From NCBI RefSeq assembly GCF_029360645.1, contig NZ_JARDUA010000001.1:1178001-1242000 (forward strand): 64,000 nt of DNA, in the 5' to 3' direction. A program made the translations under genes and the position numbers. Position 1 is the first letter of the stretch. Each line of letters opens with the position of its first letter. A model generated the notes under the pieces. The model was given only the letters and a program-made list of their open reading frames with translations. It had not been told where the DNA came from and did not search any database. Positions 6,610 to 14,372 of the stretch are shown piece after piece. The stretch is from Pontibacter litorisediminis (GTDB taxonomy: Bacteria; Bacteroidota; Bacteroidia; Cytophagales; Hymenobacteraceae).

Positions 6610-7038
6610 CTACAGAGTAGGGGTAACAGACTTTCCAGACAGCCATGTGAATGCATTTTCGCTGTTGGAGAAGTTTTGGATCTGGTAAACCGGCGCCTCG
6701 CTTTCTAAAACCTCGCCCTGCACCATCACAGCCCTCTCCTCCAGAGCCGAAGAGTCACTGACAACCCGCGCTACCCGTTGCAGGCAAGTGTCTTTCAACT
6801 GCATGGATACCTCGTAAATCAGCTCATGGTACAGTTCATTTTCTACTTCTACCACAGCCTGGCTGGAATCGAGCAGGATATTGCGGATGTGGTAGTTTTT
6901 CACACTGTTCACCATTATATCAAAGCAATACTTAGCCTCACTTAACCCTGCGGTACGCATGTCGGGCAATCGCACAAACAGTACATCCGAGGATGCATCG
7001 TAGGTTAGCCGGAAATAACTTGTCCTGAATATCTCCAT
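6610..7038 (-). CDS. STAS/SpoIIAA-like small protein, paralogue 2
   Basis: This 142-residue protein aligns by eye with the product of 5793-6200. Both share D-(I/V)-x-x-V-x-x-x-x-PD, SE(A/V)K, DI-x-V, a (L/F)LDS segment, LEER in the middle and an NFS(N/D)-x(3)-A-x-x-WL tail. It has no signal peptide or transmembrane helix. It lies 213 bp downstream of the hybrid histidine kinase on the same strand, so it may be the last gene of the oxoamine synthase-kinase operon, where a STAS-like protein could be an output partner. That role is inferred from position only. Sequence identity to paralogue 1 is low, so the duplication is old. Confidence 0.7.
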   Translation of the reverse strand: MEIFRTSYFRLTYDASSDVLFVRLPDMRTAGLSEAKYCFDIMVNSVKNYHIRNILLDSSQAVVEVENELYHELIYEVSMQLKDTCLQRVARVVSDSSALEERAVMVQGEVLESEAPVYQIQNFSNSENAFTWLSGKSVTPTL

Positions 7039-7251
7039 AGGAAGGTGGTTTTGAATGAAAAACGCAGGCGGTACGCAATAAATGTAGGCATATTGTGCTT
7101 ATTCCCCGGGGCCACAATCATATTTAACGGAATGATAACACCTAAGAATAGTGGTTTTGCTCTACCGCATGACTGTCTCCCAACCCTTAGTAAAGGCTAG
7201 TTATCCTGCAGCAGCCATACACAGCAAAACGGCCAGCACCCCTCCTGCTTG

Positions 7252-8937
7252 CTAGGCCCATTTCTTCAGTATGGCAACCAGTTCCCGGCTCGTAAAGGGT
7301 TTGCACAAATGGTCATCCATACCGGCCTGTAAACTTTTGGCAATATCATCTTTGTAAGCATTGGCTGAGAAGGCAATGATGGGGCTGGTAATTTGGGCCT
7401 GCCTGAGCCTGCCAGCCGCCTCCAGCCCATCCATCTCCGGCATCTGGATGTCCATGAAGATCAGGTCAAAGGGGTGCGCGAGCGCGAGCTTAACCGCTTC
7501 TTCCCCACTTTCGGCTGTCGTTACCTGTGCTCCGTAACTCTCCAACACTTCCTGCATCAGCAGCACATTTATCGGGTTGTCATCCACTACCAGCACCTGG
7601 GCGGCATGGCTGAAAGCAAAGGTTGCCTCATCGTCGTCTTCTTCTGGCGAGGCGGCTTCATCTTTTGGCAAGCCCAGCTTAAGCGTAAACCACACGACTG
7701 CCCCGCTCCCGGCCCCAGTTGGAGTGGAGTCGATGCCCATAGTACCCTGCATCAGGTTCACCAGCTTTTTGCAGATGGCAAGGCCCAGGCCAAAACCGCC
7801 ATACCTGCGCGATGTGGACTGGTCGGATTGCGTGAAAGACTCGAAGATCACCTCCTGCTTGTCGGGTGGGATGCCTATGCCTGTATCTGTCACCGTAAAC
7901 CTTGCTGTCACAGACGCTTCACCTACCATGTCCAGGGTACAATGCATGGCCACACTCCCTGCTTCCGTGAACTTGATGGCGTTGCTGACCAGGTTGATCA
8001 ACACTTGCGTCGTGCGCGTGGGATCGCCTACCACCATGCGGGGAAGCGCCTGGTCAAAGGTATAGGTAAAGGCCAGCCCCTTGTTTTTTGCCAGGTGCTT
8101 GTACGGCTCCAGGTGCGAGGAAACCGTCTCCCGCAGATCAAACGGGATAGCCTCGATGGAGATCTTATCTTGCTCGATCCGGTGCAGGTCCAGAATGTCG
8201 TTGAGAAGTTTTGAAAGGTTACCTCCCGAAGTTTTGATCAAACGCACGTACTGCTTCTGGGCTTCGCTCAGAGGAGTACCCATGAGCAGGTTGGTGAACC
8301 CCATGATTCCGTTCAGGGGCGTACGTATTTCATGGCTCATGCTGGAGAGGAAATTGCTCTTTGCCTCGTTGGCAGCTTCGGCTTTCTCCTTCGCTTCCTG
8401 CAGCTCACGCTCCTTTTGCTTCAGTTCGGTGATATCCTTTGCAACGATCAGGACCCCGTCCTGCTCTTTCCGGCTGTTCTGCAGGTAAGAGAACGAACAG
8501 GAAACAGGAATAGTCTCTCCTCCGGCTGCGCCAAAACACAGCTCTACATTCAGGCACTTGCCCCTCTCTTTCAGCTTGCCAAGCACCTCCGTTAGCCTTT
8601 GGGCATCTTTTTGCCCGAAGAGCACAGAGACAGGCTGGCCGATAAGGTCTGCCTCCTGCAAGCCAGATATTTCCTCAAAGGCTTCGTTTACGTTGCGGAT
8701 GGTGAAGTCGCGATTAAGCACCAGCAGCATGTCGACCACGCCCTGGTAAATACTCTGCATAAAGTCCCTGGACACTGTGGAATTTTGAAGCTCCTGCCCG
8801 AGCATGTTGATTCCGGATATGACAGCGTCCAGTTCATCACCCGTTTCCGATACATCAAGCTGATAGCCGAAGTTACCATTGGCAACTTCGGCTATCAGGG
8901 TCATTATTTCCTCTATTCTTTCCTTAAGAACTTTCAC
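7252..8937 (-). CDS. Soluble PAS-domain hybrid histidine kinase/response regulator
   Basis: This 561-residue protein contains a HAMP-like helical stretch (about 1-55), a PAS domain (about 60-175), HisKA with the phospho-acceptor in MSHEIRTPLNG (H202), a HATPase_c domain (N-box Asn319, G1 DTGIGI at 351-356, G2 GFGLGL near 381), and a C-terminal receiver (acidic pair D452-D453, phospho-acceptor D496 in FMDIQMP). There is no transmembrane segment, so the signal is probably sensed in the cytoplasm through the PAS domain. There is no output domain; phosphate probably goes to an HPt protein elsewhere. Its start lies 45 bp after the stop of the oxoamine synthase fusion, so the two are probably co-transcribed. 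That pairing recalls autoinducer synthase-sensor pairs, but the link here is untested. Confidence 0.93.
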   Translation of the reverse strand: MKVLKERIEEIMTLIAEVANGNFGYQLDVSETGDELDAVISGINMLGQELQNSTVSRDFMQSIYQGVVDMLLVLNRDFTIRNVNEAFEEISGLQEADLIGQPVSVLFGQKDAQRLTEVLGKLKERGKCLNVELCFGAAGGETIPVSCSFSYLQNSRKEQDGVLIVAKDITELKQKERELQEAKEKAEAANEAKSNFLSSMSHEIRTPLNGIMGFTNLLMGTPLSEAQKQYVRLIKTSGGNLSKLLNDILDLHRIEQDKISIEAIPFDLRETVSSHLEPYKHLAKNKGLAFTYTFDQALPRMVVGDPTRTTQVLINLVSNAIKFTEAGSVAMHCTLDMVGEASVTARFTVTDTGIGIPPDKQEVIFESFTQSDQSTSRRYGGFGLGLAICKKLVNLMQGTMGIDSTPTGAGSGAVVWFTLKLGLPKDEAASPEEDDDEATFAFSHAAQVLVVDDNPINVLLMQEVLESYGAQVTTAESGEEAVKLALAHPFDLIFMDIQMPEMDGLEAAGRLRQAQITSPIIAFSANAYKDDIAKSLQAGMDDHLCKPFTSRELVAILKKWA

Positions 8938-8982
8938 TGGCTTCTTTTAGCTGTGTGGGTTGGCAGAAGCGCGCCCTGCTTC

Positions 8983-11421
8983 TTACTCCTTTTCAACGGC
9001 AAAGGTAGCCCCAATCATCTCCATGGCAAAATTGTCTTTTGCCTGGTAATACCCCACCTTCGGATAGGGTGTCGCTCCTACTTTTTTCTTCTCCATAGTA
9101 GCCGATATCCCGAAGTTCACCTTTTTACAGCCCAGCGCATTGGCTCTCTTGATCACCTGGTAGAGCGTTTGCCTGTATACATTATACTCCAGCAGGTAAT
9201 CGTAATCCATGCCTACCAGCATGAAGCTATACACGGTAGCGGCATTCTTATGGCAAAAGGCAACCGAGACCGGCTTGGGGTTGAGCGCGTATGCCTCATC
9301 GATATAAAGCAGTACAAACTCCCATGATTCGTTTTTGTTTAGAAGGTGAAAGAGCTTCTCCGGGAACAGGAAATTGTTGATTGCATAATTGTTGCTCTTC
9401 ACGTTTCTGAACAGTGCCATGGCATGCTCCAGCTCCTCGTCTGACAAACAACTTTTCACCTGTACCTTAAAGCAGCGCTCGTACCTTTTGATCTTCTGCA
9501 CAAAGTTTTCGCGTCCCTTCTTGGAGAGGGTTCTGCGAAACTCCTCCTCTGTCGACCATCCCAGGTTTTCGACTACGCAAGACTCCGGCAAGTCCAGTTT
9601 CACGAAGTCATGCTCCACCATGAACTCATCCATTTCCGGGTCGTGGGCGTCCAGGTCCCGCAGCAGGATGCTGCCTGCTCCCTCCTGCTCCTGCTCTTTG
9701 GCGAGCTCTGCCAACAGGGCCTTCAGGGCCTGTTTCCAGTATGGGCTCTCCCTGTCCAGGAACAAATGGTTTCCCTCTGTGAACAGGCTCCCTAACACGA
9801 TCCCTGTTGAGGTAAGGTAGTAGGGGTTTGCCTCCCGCTCCTTCTCTATAGCTCTGGAGATGGATGCCTGGGAAAACATATCCTCCTTTACCAAGCCGCT
9901 CATGGCAAAAGTCATCAGCACGGTTTGGCCCTGCGGGTCTTCCACGGCATAGTACCTGAAGCCCCAGTTGCTTTCCCGCTCAGCGTTGCCCCTGAAGGAC
10001 TCTTCCAGAAACCTCATCCCATTCCAGTCGAACATGCCTCTGTTTCCGAGGCACCTGTTCCACTCAGCTGCGTCCACCTCCTCGATGGTGGCAGCGCGCC
10101 TTACCGCCAACGCCGTGTTTGCTACAGGCACTGGGGCTGCAGGCAACACGGAAAGTGCCGGTATTCTGAACGCTTTCCGGATGTTGTGCTGTGTTTGGCT
10201 TGTTGCGGTCAGCGCCCCATCAAAGTGTATTTTTAACTTGTGCACCAGCTCCTCTATGTCCTCATAGGTGTTGTTCAGAGAGATGGTGATCCGGACGCCG
10301 ATGTTCTTGGCCGGTACCGCGGGGAAGGTGGCCAGGTTTACGTAGATCCCATCGTTGAGCAGCGCTTGCACCAGGTGGTTGCCCATGTCCATGGTGCCCG
10401 TTCCGATGAAGAAAATCGGGCTCTCGCACTCGTGCACCAGCGGCAGGTCGGTTTGCCGGAGCAGTTGGTTGAAGTAAGCGATTCTTTTCTGCAGCTCCTC
10501 CTGGTATGCGTAGATCTCGCCGCTGAGGTGTATTTTGGCAGAGGCAATGGCAGCTCCCAGCGTGGCAGGCTCAATCTGCACGGAGAAAGTGAGCGGCCCG
10601 CCAAAGTTGTTCACTTTGTCATACCATGCCTGGTTGGGGAACAGCGACAAACCGCCACAGGCCCCAAAGGCTTTGCCCAGGTTTGCCGTCAGAATCATCT
10701 TGCGGTACAGCCCCTCCGGCATTTGGCTCATGGCATAACCGGCGCCGTTCTTCCCTGCCCAGCTCATGCCATGGGCATCGTCCACGTACAGGTACAGCTG
10801 CTCATACTTCTCGGCCAGGGCGATCATCTCCTTGATAGGGGCAAAGTCACCGTACATGGAGTACACGCTGTCGGCCATATACCAGATGCGCTCATACTTG
10901 CCTCTTTGCTTCTGGATGCGATCCTCCAGCATCTCCAGGTTGTTGTGCCGGATCATCTCCACAGTAACGCCCTGGCTCAACAGCTTTTTCACCGCCTCCT
11001 GCACGCTTGCGTGTACCTGATGGTCAAGTATAACCAGGTCAGACTGGCGGATGATGCTCGGAATGGTGGTCAGGTGGGAGAGGGTGCAGTTTTTGGAGAT
11101 AACGGCCGGCACCTGGTACATCTGCTGTATCAGGTCCTCCAGCTCACGGTAGAGCGGGTTGGAGACGTAAGTGCGGGACATCGGGAATTGAGTGCCAAAC
11201 CGCTCGATGGCCTCGATGGCGCCTCGCTTTACTGCTGGGTGGTGCTCCAGCCCCAGGTAGCCGCAGGTGCCAAAATGCAGGACCTTCTTGCTGTTTAGTG
11301 TCAGGTGCTGTCCGGTAAGCGCCTGGTCTTCTGCGTGCAGGTGGATGATCCCTTTCTTTTTAGAAACAGAGAGTACGGAGTCTACCGTATCTAGAATGTT
11401 GTTGTGCCTTATTTTTGCCAC
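8983..11421 (-). CDS. Alpha-oxoamine synthase fused to a GNAT-type acyltransferase
   Basis: The first ~400 residues of this 812-residue protein are a PLP-dependent alpha-oxoamine synthase, the family of BioF, KBL, serine palmitoyltransferase, ALA synthase and the CqsA/LqsA autoinducer synthases. The Schiff-base lysine is K250 in NLGKAFGACGG, and YVDDAHG supplies D214 and H217. The glycine-rich loop usual before the SR motif is replaced by QFPMSRTYVS (about 78-87). A linker rich in Ala, Pro and Val (about 410-440) leads to a C-terminal half of roughly 360 residues resembling FemAB/GNAT N-acyltransferases (GRENFVQKIKRYER, then VSVAFCHKN). Such a fusion could condense an acyl thioester with an amino acid and then N-acylate the product, as in sphingolipid, sulfonolipid or signal-molecule synthesis. 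Substrates are unknown. It is co-directional with the hybrid kinase and divergent from a STAS-like gene. Confidence 0.85.
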   Translation of the reverse strand: MAKIRHNNILDTVDSVLSVSKKKGIIHLHAEDQALTGQHLTLNSKKVLHFGTCGYLGLEHHPAVKRGAIEAIERFGTQFPMSRTYVSNPLYRELEDLIQQMYQVPAVISKNCTLSHLTTIPSIIRQSDLVILDHQVHASVQEAVKKLLSQGVTVEMIRHNNLEMLEDRIQKQRGKYERIWYMADSVYSMYGDFAPIKEMIALAEKYEQLYLYVDDAHGMSWAGKNGAGYAMSQMPEGLYRKMILTANLGKAFGACGGLSLFPNQAWYDKVNNFGGPLTFSVQIEPATLGAAIASAKIHLSGEIYAYQEELQKRIAYFNQLLRQTDLPLVHECESPIFFIGTGTMDMGNHLVQALLNDGIYVNLATFPAVPAKNIGVRITISLNNTYEDIEELVHKLKIHFDGALTATSQTQHNIRKAFRIPALSVLPAAPVPVANTALAVRRAATIEEVDAAEWNRCLGNRGMFDWNGMRFLEESFRGNAERESNWGFRYYAVEDPQGQTVLMTFAMSGLVKEDMFSQASISRAIEKEREANPYYLTSTGIVLGSLFTEGNHLFLDRESPYWKQALKALLAELAKEQEQEGAGSILLRDLDAHDPEMDEFMVEHDFVKLDLPESCVVENLGWSTEEEFRRTLSKKGRENFVQKIKRYERCFKVQVKSCLSDEELEHAMALFRNVKSNNYAINNFLFPEKLFHLLNKNESWEFVLLYIDEAYALNPKPVSVAFCHKNAATVYSFMLVGMDYDYLLEYNVYRQTLYQVIKRANALGCKKVNFGISATMEKKKVGATPYPKVGYYQAKDNFAMEMIGATFAVEKE

Positions 11422-11487
11422 GTAAATTAAGTATTATTGCACGTTGAGGGTTACTTCACAAGCAACCTGTTTAAAAATTCAATCTGA

Positions 11488-11883
11488 ATGGCAAATTTCG
11501 AAAAAGATCCTAACATCAGATCGACGGAGCACCTGTATTTATTTGTGGAGGAAGGGATCTTACACTGCGTCTATAAAGATGTAGCCTTGGTAGACCTCGA
11601 GATTGCCAAAGCCTGTGTACAGGAACGCTTAGCCTTTATCGGCAGGACAGTATACCCAAGCCTGTTTGATATCACCAGAATCAAGCAATCTACCAAGGAG
11701 GCACGGGATTTCATGGCAAACGAGGGCAACGAACAGGTTTCCGCCAGTGCCATTCTGATCAGCTCCCCTATGTTAAAAATGACCGCGAACTTCTACATCA
11801 AGGTAAACAAGCCCCGGAATCCGACGCGTATGTTTACCGACGAACCAAGCGCCCTTGAGTGGCTGTCAAGGTATAGGGCCTAG
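11488..11883 (+). CDS. STAS/SpoIIAA-like small protein, paralogue 3
   Basis: This 131-residue soluble protein diverges from the oxoamine synthase fusion, with only 66 bp between the starts, so the two promoters must lie in the same short stretch. A beta-strand-rich N-terminus (LYLFVEEGILHCVY) is followed by a helix, the segment YPSLFDITRIKQ, and the tail MFTDEPSALEWL. The tail resembles the F-x-(D/N)-x(3)-A-x-x-WL ending of the two paralogues to the left, which places it in the same loose family. No enzyme motif is present. The Asp in LFDIT occupies the position of the LDS segment in the others. I infer a regulatory role from the neighbouring kinase, but have no direct evidence for it. Confidence 0.72.
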   Translation: MANFEKDPNIRSTEHLYLFVEEGILHCVYKDVALVDLEIAKACVQERLAFIGRTVYPSLFDITRIKQSTKEARDFMANEGNEQVSASAILISSPMLKMTANFYIKVNKPRNPTRMFTDEPSALEWLSRYRA

Positions 11884-11981: not shown

Positions 11982-14372
11982 CTACTCTGCTTTGTTAAAG
12001 GTGCTCATACTTAGCTCCCGCTTTTCTCCTTTAGCAAAAGTAAGCAAGAGCTGTTTGCCCTCGTAGCCAACCGTACAGGCACCTGCTTTATCAGCCCTGA
12101 TACGAACCCTGTCCAGCTTACCGGCTTTCCACTGGATGTCAACCGTATACCCCCCTCTGGCTCGCAGGCCTGTTACTTCCCCGCTTTGCCAGTTGGCAGG
12201 CAGTGCAGGCAGCAACTCAATAGCCTTGGCGTGCGACTGCAGCAGCATTTCGGCGACACCGGCGGTGGCGCCCATGTTGCCGTCGAGTTGGAAGGGCGGG
12301 TGGGCATCCAAAAGGTTGGCGTAGGAACCCGATCCGCTGGTAAAAGACTCTGCGTTTGATTTTCCGCCTGCCGGTTTAATCACCAATTTATACAGCTCGT
12401 GCGCCCGGTCTCCGTCACGCAAACGCGCCCAGAAGTTGATCTTCCAGGCCAGCGACCAGCCGGTGCCCTCGTCGCCCCTGGCCTCCAGGCTCACCTGCGC
12501 CGCTTTGGCCAGTTCCGGTGTCTCCAGCGGGGAGATCTGCCGGCCTGGGTGCAGGGCGAATAGGTGCGAAACGTGGCGGTGCTTGTTGCCCGGGTCGTCC
12601 ACGTCTTCTTTCCACTCCTGCAGCTGGCCCCAGCGCCCAACCTGCGGCGGAAGTATTTTATCCCGCACCTGCTGGGCCTGCTGAGCGAACTCCTGATCGG
12701 TTCCTAAGGCATTTGCCGCCTGGATGCAGTTATTGAGCACATCCCAGGCGATCTGGTGGTCCATGGAGGCGCCGCCCGAAATGCCGCCATGCTCCGGCGA
12801 GTAGGAAGGCGAGGACACCAGGTAGCCGCTGCTGTCAGGGGTAAGGTAATCTACCCAGAACAGCGCCGCCTCCTTCATCACCGGGTAGGCCTGCTGCTTC
12901 AGATACTTCTCATCCTGGGTATACTCGTAGTGCTCCCACAGGTGCTGCGCCAGCCAGGCCGCCCCTCCCGGGAAAAAGCCCCAGGGCACCTCCCACCCCG
13001 GCGCAGTATAGCCGTAGGCGTTGTTCATGGTGTTCACAATCCAGCCCCGCGTGTTGAAAAAGGCTTTGGCGCTCTGCCTGCCGGGCGCCACCAGCGCTTC
13101 GGTGTAGTCCAGCAAGGGCACATGGCACTCCGGCAGGTTCGTTACCTCGGCCGGCCAGTACAGCATCTGCAGGTTAATGTTGGTGTGGTAGTCGGCTGCC
13201 CAGGGCGGGCTGGTGCTGTTGTTCCACTTGCCCTGCAGGTGCATGGGCAGGGTGCCGGGTCGCGAAGCCGAGATCATCAGGTAGCGGCCGTACTGGAAAT
13301 AGAGCATTTCCAATCCGCGGTCTTGTGCCCCCTCGAAGTAGTTTTTTTGGCGAACATCGGTAGGGACCCCGTTATACTTGTTTCCCTCTAGGTTGAGCGT
13401 CACGCGGTTGAAAAGAGAAGTATAATCCCGGGTGTGCACTTTCAACAGGGCATCCACACTCTGCTTCTCAACAGCATCAAGCCGGTTCGCCACGATGCTT
13501 TTATAGTCGGTGCCTTTGTAGGTGGGGTACTGCAAGCGGTAGTCGGTGGCGGCAGTATGAATGAGCTGCATATACCTGGCTTCACTAACTTCTACAGTGC
13601 CGTTTTCATACTTGATCTTACCGTCCGTAACGATCCGATAGGCCGTTTCAAACTCCTGCCCGTTGTCGCTCACATGCCCTCTGAAAGTATAAATGCCGTT
13701 CTCGAAGCGCTCCTCATCTTTCGGGTGCGGCGTTTTATAGGAGATACTGTACTTTTCGGGACGGCTGGAGATGAAGTGGTACACCATCACGCCCTTGGGA
13801 TAGTTGCCAAAGTATAAACGCTTATACTTTGTCTTACCAACTTGGTAGCTCACGCTGCCGGTGGCGTTGCTCAGGTCCAGTTCGCGGCGGTAGTTTTGCG
13901 GACTTGCCTCCCCGTGGCCAAGCTTCACATACAGGTCGCCCATGGTTTGCTGCGCCCCGTAATCGCCCCAGTCGGTGCTGCCTTCCAGTTTGGCCGGCGC
14001 GGTTCCCGTCAGGTGCTGCTGCACGAGCCGGTCTGCCTCTCTCAGCTTGCCCTCGCCAATCAGCTGCCGCACCTGCTGCAGGTACCGCCAGGCCTCCGGT
14101 TTGTTGCCGTAGCTATACTTCGGGTTCGAGTTCGGGCCGCCTGACCACAGGGAGCCTTCCGAGAACTGCAGCTGCTCCTCCCCCACGCCTCCAAAGAACA
14201 TCACCCCCATATAGCCGTTGCCGATCGGCAGGGCTTCCCGCATCCAATCGGTGGCAGGTTTATCATACCACAGTTTCAGCGCTTTGTCCTGTGCCAGGGC
14301 CGGCAGGAGCAACAACAGAAAGTATGGCAGGCATAGAAGTGTTCTTTTCAGTGATGTCATGGGAGGTATCAT
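11982..14372 (-). CDS. GH95 family alpha-L-fucosidase (or alpha-L-galactosidase), secreted
   Basis: This ~796-residue protein matches glycoside hydrolase family 95, inverting enzymes that release terminal alpha-1,2-linked L-fucose. A Sec signal peptide spans roughly residues 1-28; translation could start at 14372 or four codons later at MTSLKR. The N-terminal domain begins with LWYDKPATDWMREALPIGNGYMGVMFFGG, here only cited for its P-I-G-N-G core. The (alpha/alpha)6 barrel contains ADYHTNINLQM with the catalytic-region Asn pair, SPSYSPEHG with the probable acid Glu, and DGNMGATAGVAEMLLQS near the C-terminus. It lies 175 bp downstream of the sulfatase on the same strand, suggesting joint action on sulfated, fucosylated chains. 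Some GH95 members prefer L-galactose, and this cannot be excluded. The fucose catabolic genes at 37-44 kb fit a fucosidase role. Confidence 0.92.
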   Translation of the reverse strand: MIPPMTSLKRTLLCLPYFLLLLLPALAQDKALKLWYDKPATDWMREALPIGNGYMGVMFFGGVGEEQLQFSEGSLWSGGPNSNPKYSYGNKPEAWRYLQQVRQLIGEGKLREADRLVQQHLTGTAPAKLEGSTDWGDYGAQQTMGDLYVKLGHGEASPQNYRRELDLSNATGSVSYQVGKTKYKRLYFGNYPKGVMVYHFISSRPEKYSISYKTPHPKDEERFENGIYTFRGHVSDNGQEFETAYRIVTDGKIKYENGTVEVSEARYMQLIHTAATDYRLQYPTYKGTDYKSIVANRLDAVEKQSVDALLKVHTRDYTSLFNRVTLNLEGNKYNGVPTDVRQKNYFEGAQDRGLEMLYFQYGRYLMISASRPGTLPMHLQGKWNNSTSPPWAADYHTNINLQMLYWPAEVTNLPECHVPLLDYTEALVAPGRQSAKAFFNTRGWIVNTMNNAYGYTAPGWEVPWGFFPGGAAWLAQHLWEHYEYTQDEKYLKQQAYPVMKEAALFWVDYLTPDSSGYLVSSPSYSPEHGGISGGASMDHQIAWDVLNNCIQAANALGTDQEFAQQAQQVRDKILPPQVGRWGQLQEWKEDVDDPGNKHRHVSHLFALHPGRQISPLETPELAKAAQVSLEARGDEGTGWSLAWKINFWARLRDGDRAHELYKLVIKPAGGKSNAESFTSGSGSYANLLDAHPPFQLDGNMGATAGVAEMLLQSHAKAIELLPALPANWQSGEVTGLRARGGYTVDIQWKAGKLDRVRIRADKAGACTVGYEGKQLLLTFAKGEKRELSMSTFNKAE

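Follow-up and report, generated by a model that had tools for sequence, protein, structure and literature searches.

A 64,000-nt stretch of DNA from Pontibacter litorisediminis (the window, by which we mean the whole stretch analysed) carries, at positions 6610-11883, a gene that fuses an alpha-oxoamine synthase (AOS) to a tandem GNAT domain, together with genes for a soluble sensor and for a STAS-fold protein. These three components are found together in many Bacteroidia, and the set has the look of a circuit, not described before, for producing and sensing a small molecule. Because it is conserved across families, the arrangement exceeds chance. Co-inheritance, gene order, intact AOS residues, modelled folds and a promoter repeat are the observations at hand, and on balance we lean slightly towards the view that a dedicated small-molecule synthase, a cytosolic receptor and feedback make up a self-contained sense-and-make circuit. 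Searches of open-access papers brought up none that describes an AOS-GNAT fusion paired with a sensor, nor any mention of the term DUF7793, the family of the STAS-fold protein. The features of the locus are as follows.

8983..11421, minus strand: AOS-tandem GNAT fusion, 812 residues, GTG start, the proposed signal synthase
10207..11421, minus strand: AOS half of the fusion, about residues 1-405, with the pyridoxal phosphate (PLP) lysine K250 and H137, D214, H217 and R377 conserved
8983..10194, minus strand: C half of the fusion, residues 410-812, tandem GNAT, FemX-like by model, with invariant K778
7252..8937, minus strand: soluble sensor hybrid histidine kinase, 561 residues (HAMP-like N module, PAS, HisKA, HATPase, receiver)
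8752..8937, minus strand: N module of the sensor, residues 1-62, common to AraC-type and HisKA_3-type sensors elsewhere
11488..11883, plus strand: DUF7793 (PF25056) protein, 131 residues, STAS fold by model, divergent from the fusion
11422..11487, no strand: divergent intergenic region between the synthase and DUF7793 genes, 66 bp
6610..7038, minus strand: small gene earlier termed STAS-like, no conserved member of the module

The open reading frames (ORFs) are as the initial annotation had them, and a gap of 45 bp separates the 812-residue fusion from the gene downstream, which encodes a soluble hybrid kinase with a PAS domain. No RNA element reached its gathering score between 5 and 13 kb of the window. 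Outward of the DUF7793 gene, positions 11982-14372 encode a 796-residue protein which, by eye, we take to resemble a GH95-type glycoside hydrolase.

Co-inheritance of synthase, sensor and DUF7793

The full-length fusion occurs in 21 of 37 Pontibacter genomes, and none of the 21 lacks the kinase or a divergently oriented DUF7793 gene. Strong matches to DUF7793 (E<1e-37) and to the N module (E<1e-20) fall in an identical set of 23 of the 37 genomes; 21 of these 23 carry the fusion, and none of the 14 others does. Weaker matches consist of a second DUF7793 in G018 and G031 and of an N module in G019, G032 and G033. All 20 congener neighbourhoods fetched have the kinase gene (59-71% identity) immediately after the fusion and a divergent DUF7793 gene, which in one of them (L050) was found by six-frame search only. 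The genes further out differ between Pontibacter species groups.

Some genomes lack an intact synthase. In G011 and G012 the fusion is absent and the sensor and DUF7793 are kept as full, adjoining ORFs; the gap between them in G012 retains similarity to fusion residues 2-60 and 763-811, indicating that the middle of the synthase was deleted, and that of G011 holds no clear fusion remnant. A second locus (L152) of the class genome G278 carries a 169-residue ORF with a fusion fragment beside a full DUF7793 gene and sensor. In G251 the fusion is represented by two overlapping ORFs of 637 and 187 residues, a split for which a sequencing error is possible, and DUF7793 and the sensor are present. 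To judge from their sequences, such genotypes are listener-like or are loci on the way to loss.

Outside the genus, a scan of the genomes of 84,980 species was made with the window's protein, and the best 80 matches were kept; more exist. They come from Pontibacter, Fulvivirga and other Cytophagales, Imperialibacter, Lutibacter, Arenibacter, Flavobacterium, Salegentibacter, Gramella, Zunongwangia and several metagenome-assembled genomes. DUF7793 was found in 79 of these best 80 loci, the exception (L183) being cut inside the start of the fusion, and the nearest copy is upstream and divergent in 76. The N module was likewise found in 76; two of the remaining loci are short stretches (L219, L234) and two carry another gene of the kinase cluster (L193, L197). 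In a sample of the class, the C-half profile matched 34 of 395 genomes at E<1e-60, in frames of 632-862 residues except for the split G251, and DUF7793 occurs in all 34, against 143 of the 361 others. DUF7793 accompanies 36, and the N module 27, of 41 fusion loci from outside the genus. In a second set of loci, the sensor module is present in 48 of 62 fusion loci, and eight loci of this set served as seed for the N-module and DUF7793 profiles, which were also those applied to the best 80 loci and to the 41 from outside the genus. As a control, 31 loci of AOS paralogues or stand-alone C halves were inspected, and none contained DUF7793 or the N module (for 11 of the 31, the flanks extended only 1.5 kb).

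In all 23 non-Pontibacter loci with an N-module match at E<1e-9, module and DUF7793 share a strand and are less than 200 bp apart, unlike in Pontibacter, where the kinase gene sits on the far side of the fusion. Synthase and sensor are thus genetically linked, as is looked for in quorum-sensing systems. The initial annotation had proposed a search for the gene order in other Bacteroidota, and had named orthologues routinely found without the kinase and beside sphingolipid genes only as the outcome that would speak against it; the synthase-sensor pairing is conserved, with a sensor module in 76 of the best 80 loci and in 48 of 62 in the other set. No fusion from outside the class Bacteroidia was found at E 1e-100 in a phylum sample of 395 genomes with an undisclosed non-class share, in which all nine matching genomes were the query's own or of the same class.

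Several loci carry the module more than once. In L186 (Imperialibacter sp.), two complete fusions lie face to face; two hybrid kinases occupy the space between, and each fusion has a DUF7793 gene on its outer side, a layout that reads as a duplicated circuit. L201 (Salinimicrobium marinum) has a second DUF7793-sensor pair near the first, and Zunongwangia pacifica has two separate fusion loci (L226 and L237) in one genome. Parallel circuits in one cell seem possible in these strains.

Predicted chemistry of the fusion and fold of its DUF7793 partner

The top NCBIfam match of the AOS half is NF005697/PRK07505, an uncharacterised subfamily, at 290 bits, below the cut-off of 342; it scores 178 bits with BioF, 149 with the serine palmitoyltransferase (SPT) family of Bacteroidota and 88 with alpha-hydroxyketone synthases. 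In an alignment with Kbl, BioF-like and SPT-like proteins encoded in the same genome, its H137, D214, H217, K250 and R377 coincide with their catalytic residues. Profile matches and alignment together place this half in the AOS superfamily, with its fold-type I PLP domain and its Lys, Asp, His and carboxylate Arg, and bear out K250, D214 and H217 as the synthase residues first named. CqsA and LqsA had been named for comparison with the synthase, but the AOS half is not of their family, reaching 88.5 bits against a cut-off of 428 for these autoinducer synthases (NF005526/PRK07179).

In the C half, Pfam recognises Acetyltransf_6 (PF13480, E 2.8e-9) in the second part, at residues 635-777. An AlphaFold2 model of this half (38 aligned sequences, mean predicted local distance difference test score, pLDDT, of 88) shows a tandem GNAT, the fold of the FemABX proteins. 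Its closest structures in the PDB are FemX (6snr, Z 22.1, root-mean-square deviation, rmsd, of 4.8 over 308 residues; 1ne9, Z 20.8), and it is also near aminoacyl-tRNA-dependent peptide synthases (9wqw, Z 21.7), followed by MprF, other tandem GNATs and N-myristoyltransferases at Z of about 17-18. The invariant K778 (K369 of the C half) falls within two residues of the position expected without gaps for K305, the catalytic lysine of FemX, judged from the aligned ends. Searching the PDB with the C-half sequence profile returned no FemX chain at E up to 10, and three spurious rows. The acyltransferase assigned at first to this half is thus upheld by structure prediction as an enzyme of the N-acyltransferase (GNAT) fold, but its likeness to aminoacyl transferases of the FemX type is no weaker than that to acyl-CoA transferases, so that "acyltransferase" may here mean aminoacyl transfer. 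With FemX as the closest structure, aminoacyl-tRNA comes into consideration as a donor in place of acyl-CoA.

These two activities could also serve membrane synthesis, the fusion making a ceramide- or capnine-like lipid and the sensor tuning its expression to the state of the envelope or of metabolism, with no signal involved. AOS chemistry is that of serine palmitoyltransferase and of cysteate acyltransferase, and N-myristoyltransferases, whose substrate is long acyl-CoA, are among the structures with which the C half aligns (Z about 17). Bacteroidetes are known to make sulfonolipids, and the enzyme of the first step has been identified (PMC9304779). However, the AOS half stays at 149 bits against a cut-off of 640 in the SPT family (NF047600), and the congener G033 has a true SPT (719 bits) as a separate gene, whose following gene is a different one without a C-half match (0.9 bits). 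The synthase is moreover patchy in Pontibacter (21/37) and tied to the input module of the sensor, and no lipid gene appears among the annotated neighbour clusters, most neighbours being unannotated. We therefore regard a lipid product as possible but unlikely. In the congener loci L029-L032, the SPT-type gene (719 bits in L029, the sole one scanned) is adjoined by a gene of 373-376 residues. In L029 the two genes have the same orientation and overlap at the end of the SPT-type gene, and the neighbour lacks an NCBIfam match. This neighbour possibly supplies the N-acylation step of sphingolipid synthesis; the idea that it is a free-standing version of the C half was not supported, the best score being 1.9 bits (E 0.064) among the few genes compared in L029-L034.

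The 131-residue protein encoded divergently from the fusion belongs to DUF7793 (PF25056, E 2.5e-40). Its model, built from 44 sequences (pLDDT 88), adopts the STAS/SpoIIAA fold, with Z up to 13.2 (4xs5, rmsd 2.3 over 110 residues). Counting by offset from the STAS motif, we take the position of the phosphorylatable serine to be occupied in DUF7793 by a nearly invariant lysine, K70. STAS-like genes had been proposed on each side of the fusion and kinase, and this holds for the gene at 11488-11883; that at 6610-7038 lies outside the module, and its STAS fold is only putative. The latter has no Pfam match above the cut-off, a profile of four sequences aligns with DUF7793 over 24 C-terminal columns only (hhalign 68%), and its relatives occur in two of the 20 fetched congener loci only (L037 and L044), at other positions.

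Exchangeable sensor outputs, the promoter repeat and mobile context

Pfam finds PAS, HisKA, HATPase and receiver domains in the kinase of the window, and an N-terminal HAMP (PF00672) below threshold. A cytosolic location, as first assumed, is supported by the lack of a strongly hydrophobic segment (maximum 19-residue mean hydropathy of 1.07). The constant part of the sensors is the N module, with the consensus GNF.Y......DELDAII.GINMLGEEL..STVSRDY, and a PAS match is present in 11 of the 13 sensors scanned with Pfam, the exceptions being L095 and L126. In these scans the output varies: a hybrid kinase in the window, L055 and L181; a HisKA kinase in L093, L107 (with an additional receiver protein) and L180; a HisKA_3 kinase in L092, L123, L126, L105 and L106, in the last two with a LuxR-type response regulator after it; and an AraC-type helix-turn-helix in L095 and L194. 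Sensor length in the 76 module-bearing loci among the best 80 is under 360 residues in 58 and at least 466 in 18. Two short sensors were scanned, L194 from these 58 and L095 from the other set, both AraC-type, the rest being assigned by length and cluster; the short ORFs of L182, L190 and L203 are cut or are fragments. The pairing of synthase and sensor first noted in the window is therefore conserved, but the kinase is merely one of several outputs. An input that is kept while the output is exchanged is expected if the synthase and DUF7793 act on the input.

We then considered the promoters between DUF7793 and the synthase in 54 of the best 80 loci, namely those with a sensor under 360 residues and a gap of more than 120 bp, which include no kinase-type loci. 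When each region is compared with itself, the strongest 16-bp match is displaced by 21 bp in 30.8 of the 54 (ties shared); 20 dinucleotide-preserving shuffles gave 2.6 such regions on average and 4.8 at most. At least 12 of the 16 repeat positions are identical in 35 of the 54 regions, one of which (L202) is A/T-rich with another motif. The half-sites drift between genera, but, judged by eye, they do so jointly; a regular expression for the half-site matched only 34 of the 54 regions in consequence of this drift. Counting k-mers was uninformative, giving mostly A/T-rich words, and the repeat came from the alignment consensus. Seven of the 35 loci have a further copy of the repeat elsewhere, six of them 15-56 bp upstream of a MauE-type gene (counts taken without a shuffle control). 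Two direct half-sites placed two helical turns apart are the usual form of an AraC-family operator, and the AraC-type sensor probably binds the 21-bp direct repeat of the synthase promoter, as the promoter sequences suggest. The repeat suggests that the synthase is itself a target of the sensor, which would close a feedback loop.

The flavobacterial loci have a further regularity. In 46 of 70 loci (L180-L249, two of them from Pontibacter), the fusion is followed on the same strand by a gene of one cluster, within 150 bp in 44 of them, and the member in L194 (Flavobacterium johnsoniae CI04) matches RteC (E 4.8e-72). A TopB-type topoisomerase gene lies nearby in L194 and a TraG-type P-loop ATPase gene in L215. 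Genes of a Bacteroides-type conjugative element (RteC, TopB and TraG-type) accompany the circuit in these flavobacterial loci. In CTnDOT, an element of Bacteroides, the genes for excision and transfer are under the control of RteC (PMC1976400). No plasmid carriage was detected at E 1e-60 in 72,556 plasmid records.

The other side holds MauE-type membrane genes, DUF6520-type small proteins and S9 or M16 peptidases (one member of each scanned), and SusD-like genes recognised by inspection only. As a recurrent set (for example at L194:690-5324 and L215:516-5225), a MauE/DoxX-type gene, a DUF6520 protein of about 91 residues, an S9/M16 peptidase and a SusD-like gene adjoin the short sensor, sometimes with their own copy of the promoter repeat. 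The conjugative context may bear on the circuit or may merely be its vehicle.

A toxin or antibiotic locus would share several of these traits: the fusion would make a bioactive compound, the sensor and DUF7793 would detect it for control or self-protection, and fusion-minus strains would be protected. Synthase-minus genomes do retain the sensor, the locus is carried beside conjugative-element genes in flavobacteria, and FemX-fold aminoacyl transferases occur in antibiotic pathways (PMC12945691). Yet a single enzyme with two domains makes for a small pathway, the few neighbour clusters annotated (most are unannotated) include neither a resistance nor an export gene, and the promoter repeat hints at feedback-like control of the synthase by the sensor. 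A secondary-metabolite locus thus appears improbable to us.

The proposed circuit and known counterparts

That the kinase and DUF7793 are ordinary neighbours of the fusion, brought together by chance since histidine kinases and DUF7793 are abundant families in Bacteroidia, is most improbable in view of their near-constant presence (DUF7793 in 79 and the N module in 76 of the best 80 loci), their identical 23-genome sets in Pontibacter and the 0/31 count of the control loci.

We thus return to a sense-and-make circuit, which could operate as follows. The AOS half would condense an amino acid with an acyl thioester to an alpha-aminoketone, as the chemistry of the family and the intact catalytic residues suggest, and the FemX-like tandem GNAT half, by its fold and its fusion to the synthase, would acylate or aminoacylate the new amine. 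The product or a derivative would be read inside the cell by the HAMP-like/PAS input half together with DUF7793, with which it co-occurs and adjoins. Its state would then be relayed by the output of each lineage, through a phosphorelay in Pontibacter and a kinase with a LuxR-type regulator elsewhere. In flavobacteria, the AraC domain would bind DNA directly, and the sensor would control its own signal synthase via the 21-bp repeat.

Several points weigh against this reading. The product, its binding as a ligand, its export and any cell-to-cell effect are all hypothetical, and the AOS half is outside the CqsA/LqsA type. The best 80 loci lean to close relatives of the window's protein, and the genomes and intergenic regions compared are related, so that the counts are not independent events. 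Five of the 62 fusion loci lack DUF7793 and 14 lack an N module at E<=1e-3 (in nine of the 14 a different gene of the kinase cluster is present, and some contigs are cut short). Conversely, DUF7793 and the N module occur without the fusion in L153, L154, L155, L158 and L165, two of them (L153 and L165) being short contigs. The multigene family DUF7793 extends beyond the module: it is found in 177 of 395 class genomes with at least 11 matches in some, and genome G051 carries two divergent fusions (L056 and L057) without an adjoining DUF7793 or N module. With 18 DUF7793 matches in G051 and the fusions not beside them, DUF7793 must have other roles. At L158:6971-8206, DUF7793 is followed by a 62-residue ORF with the N module and by a separate 193-residue kinase fragment, and the sensor gene is probably broken there.

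In a more specific form, the fusion would be a one-chain synthase of N-aminoacyl- or N-acyl-alpha-aminoketones that could cyclise to pyrazinone-type autoinducers, the STAS and HAMP-like/PAS proteins would form a new type of cytosolic receptor with exchangeable outputs, and on the conjugative elements of flavobacteria, where synthase and RteC would share a promoter, the signal would time excision and transfer. We regard this full version as improbable. If the circuit itself is right, it represents a small-molecule communication circuit that is widespread in Bacteroidia, with a defined enzyme, a receptor and, in one lineage, a candidate operator, and it is found in cultured genera (Pontibacter, Flavobacterium, Arenibacter, Salegentibacter, Gramella). 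It would also give DUF7793 a function, show one input module refitted with kinase, response-regulator or AraC outputs, and might tie a signal to the control of conjugative elements.

The nearest known counterparts are CqsA-CqsS and LqsA-LqsS, in which the gene of a synthase, also PLP-dependent and of the AOS fold, adjoins that of a sensor histidine kinase. The AOS half of the window belongs to another subfamily and is fused to a tandem GNAT; compared with CqsS and LqsS, its sensor is soluble, with a PAS input and a swappable output, and a STAS-fold third protein is present. CqsS is membrane-bound (PMC3285556).

SPT with ceramide synthase likewise couples an AOS step to a following N-acylation, whereas the fusion is tied to a sensor and a congener has its true SPT apart. 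FemABX aminoacyl-tRNA transferases share the double GNAT fold modelled for the C half, but the transferase of the fusion is joined to an AOS and has no sequence-profile link to FemX. The STAS fold modelled for DUF7793 is also that of the regulators RsbS, RsbV and SpoIIAA, from which DUF7793 differs in that its neighbouring partner gene encodes a HAMP-like/PAS sensor and not an anti-sigma kinase.

A further parallel is VqmA, a cytosolic PAS protein whose DNA-binding domain is LuxR-type, whereas the outputs seen here are AraC or kinase domains. If the product of the fusion were an N-aminoacyl aminoketone, the circuit would work much like that of 3,5-dimethylpyrazin-2-ol (DPO) and VqmA, except that the fused AOS-transferase would be a dedicated synthase. 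In Vibrio, N-alanyl-aminoacetone cyclises to DPO, which is read by the transcription factor VqmA and, as proposed in the same source, apparently has no dedicated synthase (PMC12930378).

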